Positions 13,073-63,031 of a DNA stretch of 64,000 nt are shown here, piece by piece. The notes beneath the pieces are model-generated. The model made no database searches, was not told the origin of the DNA, and saw only the letters and a list, made by a program, of their open reading frames with translations. The translations under genes were made by a program, and so were the position numbers. The DNA is taken from NCBI RefSeq assembly GCF_021233415.1, contig NZ_CP089466.1, positions 1,984,001 to 2,048,000 on the forward strand, read 5' to 3'. This stretch comes from Halobacterium litoreum (lineage in GTDB: Archaea; Halobacteriota; Halobacteria; Halobacteriales; Halobacteriaceae). Each line of letters begins with the position of its first letter. Position 1 is the stretch's first letter.

Positions 13073-13150
13073 GGAGTGGGTGTCTCGTTCCGGGTAAGTA
13101 ACGCTTGAGGTGTCGAGTCGAAGGATTCGCGTTCGGACACTGCGACGGCA

Positions 13151-13315
13151 GCCGAAAGCCCTCGGGTGTCTGCGGTCCCGCCGCTCGCTGTGCTCTTCAC
13201 TCGCTACGCTCGTTCGGTGCTTGCCTCGCGGGGGTTCCCGCAGACACCCTCGCCCTTTCAATCCACCAGGCCGCAAACTGCCCAGTTAGCGACGAGCAGT
13301 CGGCTGACGGGGTGG
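13151..13315 (+). repeat. Structured intergenic repeat E2 (half-unit of the E1 family)
   Basis: The segment starts ccgaaagccctcgggtgtc. Arms gggtgtctgcgg (13164-13175) and ccgcagacaccc (13238-13249) form a perfect 12-bp stem. Its loop contains cactcgctacgctcgttc and gtgcttgcctcg, and it is followed directly by tcgccctttcaatccacc. The order and sequences match, in opposite orientation, half of the E1 element at 61.9-62.2 kb. The second half is decayed: only ccacc (13263-13267) and ggtgg (13311-13315) remain of the central stem. It lies between the SDR promoter and the endonuclease V stop. The rest of the spacer 13073-13348 shows no gene. Confidence 0.7.
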
Positions 13316-60842: not shown

Positions 60843-60893
60843 ATGAGTTGGCTACGACTCATCCGGTTTTTCCGGGGGGACTTACGCCAATGA
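60843..60893 (+). other. 16-codon mini-ORF overlapping the tfb start
   Basis: ATG at 60843 opens a 16-residue frame (MSWLRLIRFFRGDLRQ) whose stop overlaps the tfb ATG as ATGA (60890-60893). That is the overlap form used for translational coupling. It needs a transcript starting at or before 60843, which the visible TATA box does not predict, so it is only a candidate. Confidence 0.3.
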
Positions 60894-61843
60894 CAGACGC
60901 ACGCATGCGTTCCCGAGAGCAGGAGCGCACGGACGAAACGGAGACGACCGACGGCTGCCCGGAGTGTGGCGGCCTCGTCGTCAACGACGAAGAGCACGGC
61001 GAGTCGGTGTGTGCCGACTGCGGCCTCGTGGTCGAGGAGGACGGCATCGACCGCGGGCCCGAGTGGCGCGCCTTCGACTCCAAGGAGAAAGACCAGAAGT
61101 CCCGCGTCGGCGCACCCACGACGAACACGATGCACGACAAGGGGCTGTCCACGAACATCGACTGGCGCGACAAGGACGCCTACGGCAACTCGCTGTCCTC
61201 GAACCAGCGCCAGAAGATGCAGCGTCTCCGCAAGTGGAACGAGCGCTTCCGCACCCGCGACGCCAAGGAGCGCAACCTCAAGCAGGCCCTCGGCGAAATC
61301 GACCGGATGGCCTCCGCGCAGGGCCTGCCGGACAACGTCCGCGAGACGGCCTCGGTCATCTACCGCCGCGCGCTCGAAGACGACCTGCTGCCCGGCCGCT
61401 CCATCGAGGGCGTCGCAACCTCCTGCGTGTACGCCGCCGCCCGACAGGCCGGCGTCCCGCGCTCCCTCGACGAAATCGCCGACGTGAGCCGCGTCGAGAA
61501 AGCCGAAATCGCGCGCACCTACCGCTACGTCGTGCGCGAACTCGGCCTCGAAGTCGCGCCCGCCGACCCCGAGAGTTACGTCCCGCGCTTCGCCTCCGAC
61601 CTCGGCCTCTCGGACGAGGCCAGCCACCGCGCCCGCGAACTCCTCAAGACCGCGAAGAACAAGGGCGTCCACTCCGGCAAGTCGCCGGTCGGCCTCGCCG
61701 CCGCCGCCGTCTACGCCGCCGCCCTCCTCACCAACGAGAAGACCACGCAGGCGAAGGTCTCCGAGGTCGCGGACATCTCCGAAGTCACGATTCGGAACCG
61801 CTACCACGAGCTCCTCGAAGCCGAGGACACGATTCCGGTTTAG
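60890..61843 (+). CDS. tfb: Transcription initiation factor TFB
   Basis: The 317-residue archaeal TFIIB homologue has an N-terminal zinc ribbon (CPECGGLVVNDEEHGESVCADCGL), a B-finger/linker (GPEWRAFDSKEKDQKSRVGAPTTNTMHDKGLSTNIDWRDKD) and two cyclin folds with the recognition helix in VSEVADISEVTIRNRYHELLE. It recruits RNA polymerase to TBP-bound promoters. Haloarchaea have several TFB paralogues and which one this is cannot be told. The ATG at 60890 follows a G-rich SD-like run. An upstream TTG would extend it but has no family match. Confidence 0.95.
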   Translation: MTDARMRSREQERTDETETTDGCPECGGLVVNDEEHGESVCADCGLVVEEDGIDRGPEWRAFDSKEKDQKSRVGAPTTNTMHDKGLSTNIDWRDKDAYGNSLSSNQRQKMQRLRKWNERFRTRDAKERNLKQALGEIDRMASAQGLPDNVRETASVIYRRALEDDLLPGRSIEGVATSCVYAAARQAGVPRSLDEIADVSRVEKAEIARTYRYVVRELGLEVAPADPESYVPRFASDLGLSDEASHRARELLKTAKNKGVHSGKSPVGLAAAAVYAAALLTNEKTTQAKVSEVADISEVTIRNRYHELLEAEDTIPV

Positions 61844-61922: not shown

Positions 61923-62202
61923 GACGACGCCTCGAAAGCCCCGGCGCGCTCGTGGCCTGTGACTCGCTGCGCTCCTCGCTCCCTCCGGTCGCTGTGGTGC
62001 TTGCGTCGTCTCGACTCACGAGCGCGCCGCCCCTTTCAGTCCACCCGATGCCGGTTGGTCAGCCGGCAGGCTACGGGGTGGACTCCGAAAGGGGCGAGGG
62101 TGTGGACGAAGGCGCGCGACGTAAGCACTGGAACGAGCGAAGCGAGTGAAGCGCGCAGCGAGCGCACCGAGTCCACACCCTCGGGGCTTTCGAGGCGTCG
62201 TC
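61923..62202. repeat. E1: inverted-duplicate element able to form a four-way junction
   Basis: Outer stem P1: 61923-61943 with 62182-62202, 21 bp perfect, sequence beginning gacgacgcctcgaaagcccc. P2: 61944-61954 with 62017-62027 (gcgcgctcgtg), 11 bp. P3: 62030-62037 with 62087-62094 (cccctttc/gaaagggg) and 62038-62046 with 62076-62084 (agtccaccc/gggtggact), separated by a 2-nt bulge, capped by tgccgg/ccggca. P4: 62097-62107 with 62171-62181 (agggtgtggac), 11 bp. Joints have 0, 2, 2 and 0 unpaired bases. The halves are related inverted copies, and E2 at 13.15 kb is a single half. Confidence 0.8.
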
Positions 62203-62299: not shown

Positions 62300-63031
62300 A
62301 TGGACTTCGAGGAGTTCGTGCTCGCTGCGAGCGTCGGCGACCTCGCCGACGAGGAGCGAGCGCGAGAGCACGCGGACGCCGTGGAGTTCCGGATGGACCT
62401 CGCGGACGACCCGCTGGCGGCGCTGGACGACTACGACGGGGAACTGCCGGTCATCGCGACGAACCGCCCGACGTGGGAGGGCGGGGAGGCCGAGGAGGGC
62501 GGGCGCGTGAACGCGCTCGTGGAGGCAGCACAGACCGAGAGCGTCGCGGCCGTGGACGTGGAGTTGGCGTCGCTCGTCGGGAGCGACGAGAACGACGTAG
62601 ACGGAGACGGTGGCGGCGAGGACGACGCGGCGGTCGACGAGCGCGGGAACGGCGCGGAGGTGCTGGCGGCGGCGCGGGCGGCAGATACGACCACCATCGT
62701 GTCGAGTCACGACTTCGAGGGGACGCCGCCGCTCTCGGAGTTGGCGAGCACGCTCGGCGAGGCTTGTTCGCTCGGCGACGTCGGGAAACTCGCGGTGACC
62801 GCCGAGGACCGCGGCGACGCCCTGGACTTGCTCCGGGTGACCCACGAGTACAGCGCGGCGGGGATGACGGTGGCGACGATGGCGATGGGCGAAGCGGGCC
62901 GGCACACGCGCCCGGTCGCGCCGCTGTACGGGTCGCGAATCGGGTACGCGCCCGTGGACAGCGAGGACGCGACAGCGCCCGGCCAGTACGACGCGGCGAC
63001 GCTCCGGCGGCTCGTCGCGGACCTCCGGTAG
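62300..63031 (+). CDS. aroD: 3-dehydroquinate dehydratase, type I
   Basis: The 243-residue enzyme dehydrates 3-dehydroquinate in the shikimate pathway by a Schiff-base mechanism. [32 protein letters not shown] with His137 and GKLAVTA with Lys163 are the active-site segments, with [25 protein letters not shown] at the end. An acidic insertion of about 25 residues (95-118, [15 protein letters not shown] and following) interrupts the barrel and is not normal for the family. It is 51 bp before the zinc-ribbon membrane gene and near dehydroquinate synthase II, the preceding step. Confidence 0.95.

Follow-up and report, generated by a model that had tools for sequence, protein, structure and literature searches.

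The 280-nt element E1, at positions 61923-62202 of the window (the whole 64,000-nt stretch of Halobacterium litoreum DNA analysed here), is composed of two copies of one ~107-nt hairpin repeat, set in opposite orientation around a 47-nt hairpin spacer. We consider it probable, at roughly 0.6, that this element belongs, as a head-to-head dimer, to a family of haloarchaeal palindromic repeats that resemble REP/REPIN sequences, are non-autonomous and have their modules copied from one fixed site to another. Members of this repeat family were found to be dispersed, to sit between genes, to be replaced, inverted or deleted down to their ends, and to pair head to head.

E1 lies on the 2.7 Mb chromosome between two plus-strand genes, the upstream tfb for transcription factor B (60848-61843; PF00382, PF08271) and the downstream aroD for a type I 3-dehydroquinase (62300-63031; PF01487). 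As a whole it has no strand of its own, and it was delimited by its fold and by two outward-facing hits of a covariance model. The left unit, of type X, occupies 61932-62038 on the minus strand, running from its B end at 62038 to its A end at 61932 (pattern match at contig positions 2045932-2046038, minus; R1 107.6 bits). The right unit, also of type X, occupies 62086-62193 on the plus strand, from its B end at 62086 to its A end at 62193 (R1 112.9 bits), and one of the genome's 22 exact A-end sequences lies at 62183-62195. Between them, the unstranded spacer (62039-62085) contains a small hairpin (GCCGGTTGGTCAGCCGGC) along with the two G-rich tags, which face each other, and other pairs have similar spacers. 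The window contains one more unit of the family, a degenerate one, at 13145-13269 on the minus strand (R1 75.5 bits, E 9.5e-16).

The original prediction had described E1 as a perfect 21-bp outer stem closing on three inner arms, with halves that are inverted relatives, and all of these stems were found exactly at the positions given; the two halves indeed carry the same repeat, facing opposite ways. The arms of the outer stem (inverted repeat I2) lie at 61923-61943, consisting of the left-unit A end and 7 flanking bases, and at 62182-62202, consisting of the right-unit A end and flanking bases. The claim that folding goes beyond random expectation was borne out as well, since the RNA fold of the 280 nt reached -183.1 kcal/mol (z -10.9), the DNA-parameter fold reached -102.9 (z -10.1), and 0 of 200 dinucleotide shuffles folded as well. 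The four-way junction is the RNA optimum of E1, the left unit, spacer and right unit reaching only -130.0 when folded separately, while the DNA-parameter optimum keeps the outer stem but has a different interior and is not a four-way junction. Because each unit is near-palindromic, with A pairing to A' and B to B', a four-way junction arises automatically in a head-to-head pair, and it is a consequence of the dimer and probably not the functional entity.

The unit typically spans 94-122 nt, is characterised by GAAAG/CTTTC ends, and has constant end sequences, TGAAAGGGGC on the 5' side (B end) and GGGGCTTTCGA on the 3' side (A end). It is preceded by a G-rich unpaired 5' tag, with a consensus of about GGGNGGGAC, and weakly followed by GGTGT-like sequence. 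The GAAAG and CTTTC ends are nearly invariant, but the searches selected for them, so that this constancy is not independent evidence. Between the common ends lie two main interchangeable core types, X and Y. The X core has an outer stem of ~10-13 bp, a GAA/GA loop and a short stem with a recurrent mismatch, followed further in by a conserved internal loop, CGACGYAAGCAC facing GCGCAGCGAG, and by a variable terminal hairpin. The Y core has an outer stem, a one-sided loop with GGTCG, a CTATC facing GATATG, and a terminal hairpin. These conserved internal loops and mismatches go beyond the requirements of a simple palindrome, and they could reflect a role as RNA or in protein binding. In three units the interior is flipped with respect to the ends. 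Another core, of a third kind (CCGTTATCGGCGGC...), was seen with the family ends in two Halobacteriales records, on the plus strand of each (L119:1648-1764 and L227:1118-1234). As well, small extra palindromes such as GGAAGACTCACTGCGTTCGTCTTCC occur beside or inside units at L073, L075 and L078 (the tfb-aroD sites of G009, G012 and G011, respectively) and at L266, L269 and L270, and the same hairpin is found again at other sites.

When E1 was used as a query against its own genome, more than 80 matches were obtained, and the exact word GGGGCTTTCGAGG occurs there in 22 copies versus 1 for the reversed word. The covariance model, built on 58 size-filtered, non-redundant X units, located 41 units in this genome, spread over 30 loci, 19 of which hold a single unit; the full set of 133 X units gave an automatic alignment with too many gaps for a stable consensus fold. 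Of the 292 Halobacteria genomes, 84 contain a two-end pattern requiring the exact unit ends, so that the repeat reaches at least 37 of the 77 genera; the reversed-pattern control stood at 0 in every genome, and the pattern was found in 0 of the 312 genomes of the phylum outside Halobacteria. Among the matches listed, those with names came from haloarchaea throughout. Some copies lay on haloarchaeal plasmids, with no annotated gene extending over any of the plasmid copies listed. Viral contigs and phage records gave no unit match, and in Rfam neither E1 nor any of eight other loci came near a gathering score. The majority of copies have diverged considerably (70-90% identical), which does not point to current movement. 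The result is a countable and widespread haloarchaeal family of large structured intergenic repeats, without a match in Rfam.

Some features of the distribution along chromosomes were also recorded. Outside the window, a 917-kb arc of the H. litoreum chromosome (G000:C1:736,459-1,652,907) is free of units, the 30 loci being spread across the rest (simulated p 0.00015); sampled G+C is alike inside and outside the arc, and the listed unit positions in the congeners G009, G002 and G011 suggest similar gaps. In genome G045, the forward strand of the assembly carries 19 units and the reverse strand 6, a possible strand bias. Moreover, G001:C2:111652-111749 equals G080:C1:389261-389358 over the 80 nt shown, and as the two genomes belong to different families of the order, this suggests horizontal transfer.

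By a simple codon-based gene call, 188 of 191 units are intergenic. The genes flanking them are tandem in 106 cases, divergent in 58 and convergent in 27; a terminator-like role was rejected, since the convergent enrichment expected for it is absent. Unit neighbours are mostly unrelated genes, with no gene family recurring beyond orthologous sites, and units tend to avoid promoters, the 5th percentile of the distance to a start codon being 70 nt. Where the flanking genes are tandem, 68 units share the strand of these neighbours and 38 are on the opposite strand (p 0.005, with paired units not independent). Pairs are head to head in 11 of 11 cases in the own genome (chance 2e-7) and in 27 of 30 elsewhere, the B ends and tags facing each other across a gap of typically 20-50 nt with a small hairpin. 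A resemblance to CRISPR repeats (..GGGACTGAAAG) was dropped on account of single units without an inverted partner, and a G-quadruplex formed from the G-tracts of tag and ends was set aside, many tags having only GGG plus GG.

The stems of both core types covary. In X stems 95.3% of cells are paired and double-change cells number 355, against 107.5 +/- 7.7 after shuffling, and in Y stems there are 90 such cells against 24.8 +/- 3.7. The right unit of E1 differs from a close copy at 2602544 by 6 bases, 4 of which make up two fully compensated pairs. Where the original prediction could have failed, through a lack of copies or a loss of pairing in them, copies were found that keep their stem pairing and carry compensatory changes. 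In the outer stem, read on the unit strand, non-Watson-Crick pairs are G-U in 32 cases and A-C in 7 (p 7e-5, the copies being not fully independent). This excess shows a single-strand signature, of RNA or of single-stranded DNA of the unit strand, with mutational strand bias as a possible alternative. In type X, a symmetric-score fold over the whole hairpin gave no G-U excess, owing to conserved mismatches (A-C, A-A and C-C) in the inner stems, and the G-U claim is limited to the outer stem.

Comparison of the same sites in different species showed that the position of a site is inherited while its hairpin sequence is replaced and pairing is kept. The tfb-aroD site carries the X-X pair in H. 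litoreum; five congeners have a single unit there, of type Y or similar to it, and six have no unit, their intergene measuring 37-144 nt. At a second orthologous site, Y is present in two species, X in two, fused ends only in one, and an A end with another hairpin in one; a third has X units with different arms in five species. At a fourth, the entire pair is inverted in one species and reduced to one end in another, and a fifth has a 99%-identical core in two species with flanks 81-91% identical, and other cores in three. The median core identity was 0.67 at orthologous sites, 0.63 at unrelated sites and 0.58 after shuffling, automatic boundaries that were too wide for three units lowering some of these values, while orthologous flanks reached 0.72-0.97. 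No clean empty site or target-site duplication was found at the orthologous sites compared, the sites lacking a unit being deletions or diverged intergenes, and the 'empty' site of G004 retains one end. Among the options of the original prediction, a mobile MITE-like repeat is the best supported: many copies with the same ends are dispersed between genes, and some congeners lack one at tfb-aroD. Neither a target-site duplication nor a transposase was found, however.

The repeat family would be non-coding, non-autonomous DNA, and a unit would act once one strand is single-stranded and folded. Existing unit sites may receive copies of modules through gene conversion or through short-homology recombination between the constant ends, which extend up to ~20 nt; alternatively, the copying might be done by a single-strand-DNA enzyme acting on the folded strand. 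Mobilisation by a RAYT/IS200 enzyme at present was rejected, because Y1_Tnp (PF01797, IS200/RAYT type) had 0 hits in the own genome and in the unit-rich genomes G012, G045, G240 and G157; Y1_Tnp was found in unit-poor genomes. No autonomous partner gene adjoining units recurred beyond orthologous sites. As a more tentative proposal, which we hold to be possible but do not favour, haloarchaea could have a previously undescribed system in which an enzyme recognising TGAAAGGGGC and GGGGCTTTCGA moves hairpin modules from one fixed intergenic docking site to another, either in single-stranded DNA form or via RNA, with X and Y as alternative cargo, in an attC- or REPIN-like manner without a Y1 transposase.

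Part of the same evidence might also be read as that of a class-wide structured RNA, in which every unit would give a transcript of its own strand, from tag to A end, that folds into a protein-binding or regulatory hairpin, with many paralogues in intergenic or untranslated regions. The covarying stems and conserved internal loops of X and Y, the departures that are G-U and not A-C on one strand, and the co-stranded units in tandem contexts (with the dependence of paired units noted above) all agree with such an RNA; however, units are not placed consistently with respect to genes, any one transcript would necessarily have half of the paired units opposite to it, orthologous sites differ in core type or have the pair inverted, and Rfam offers no match. 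We regard this explanation as less likely, but as a serious rival. The form of it in the original prediction, a structured RNA after tfb, gains from the covariation, the internal loops and the strand-specific G-U excess, but the tie to tfb did not survive, since copies adjoin many unrelated genes in either orientation. Even strong covariation does not by itself establish an RNA gene where a mobile palindrome is a possible reading of the element.

E1 is very unlikely to be a site at which a nucleoid or resolvase protein acts on a double-stranded cruciform or four-way junction, with the dimer as the functional unit. The junction being the RNA optimum of E1 and the recurrence of the head-to-head layout are what such a site would lead one to expect, but a lone unit stands at 19 of the 30 loci, the DNA-parameter optimum differs from the junction, and a symmetric cruciform predicts as many G-U as A-C pairs, so that the observed 32:7 counts against it. 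A cruciform or resolvase target as a property of the 280-bp tract, as first suggested, is not supported: the shape follows from paired hairpin units, and departures from pairing are strand-asymmetric. Least probable of all are functionless quasi-palindromes, perfect only through replication template switching and spread by chance. Template switching is able to copy one arm onto the other, and the fast evolution of stems with pairing maintained, as well as the nested extra hairpins, are in line with it, but it leaves unexplained both the fixed head-to-head pairing and the conserved unpaired tag, ends and internal loops in many genera. The reading of E1 as a dimer of REP/REPIN-like modules copied between fixed sites is the one we favour, and as hairpins are replaced between congeners with pairing kept, it can be tested what copies or exchanges them between sites without a Y1 transposase.

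In the literature searched (open-licence papers), the family is not described under any name, and it was compared with several known systems. A MITE would have terminal inverted repeats related to a known transposon, and a target-site duplication; the ends of the units are inverted repeats, and no parent transposon or duplication was seen at the unit loci examined. The attC sites of integrons fold into hairpins whose ends are conserved and whose interior varies freely but keeps its structure, and they are active as single-stranded DNA. The units share the conserved ends and the variable, structure-keeping interior, as an analogy only, but no integrase, cassette array or gene capture was seen with them.

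Bacterial REP/BIME/REPIN sequences are 20-40 nt palindromes tagged with GTAG or CGTC at the foot of the hairpin, among which head-to-head dimers dominate; a RAYT (Y1 HUH) transposase in the genome is expected except for CGTC REPs, which have no dedicated transposase (PMC3733652, PMC3116915). The haloarchaeal units are likewise dispersed, intergenic, many-copy hairpins with an unpaired tag at one end that form head-to-head dimers. However, they are ~107 nt long, their tag is about GGGNGGGAC and not GTAG or CGTC, their hosts are archaea, the H. litoreum genome has no RAYT-type (Y1) gene, and constant ends enclose two exchangeable cores. Since they differ in size, tag and RAYT, the units were not filed as REP despite the like architecture. 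The RepRanger survey of REPs lists no haloarchaeon (PMC12306157).

PATEs are non-coding, palindrome-bearing elements, IS605-related and without terminal inverted repeats, that leave terminal-only remnants after core deletion (PMC3119063). The units are also non-coding and palindromic, with ends-only remnants, but their ends are inverted repeats, and transposase genes did not recur among their neighbours. The SMR-A elements of Haloquadratum walsbyi (HqIRS42, 43 and 55) are ~110 bp long, have prominent inverted terminal repeats and no target duplication, are moved by an unknown mobiliser, and insert into the palindromes of PATEs and IS605-type elements (PMC3119063). In the SwitchRepeats of the same species, a given position is occupied in two strains by different repeats or by one repeat that may face either way (PMC3119063), and the units likewise show different hairpins or an inverted pair at one site. 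The units sit in ordinary intergenes and not in PATE or IS605-type palindromes. They are also haloarchaeal, 94-122 nt long and bounded by terminal inverted repeats. No target duplication was seen with them, at sites among which none was cleanly empty, and, compared by description only, their family may be related to SMR-A and the SwitchRepeats.
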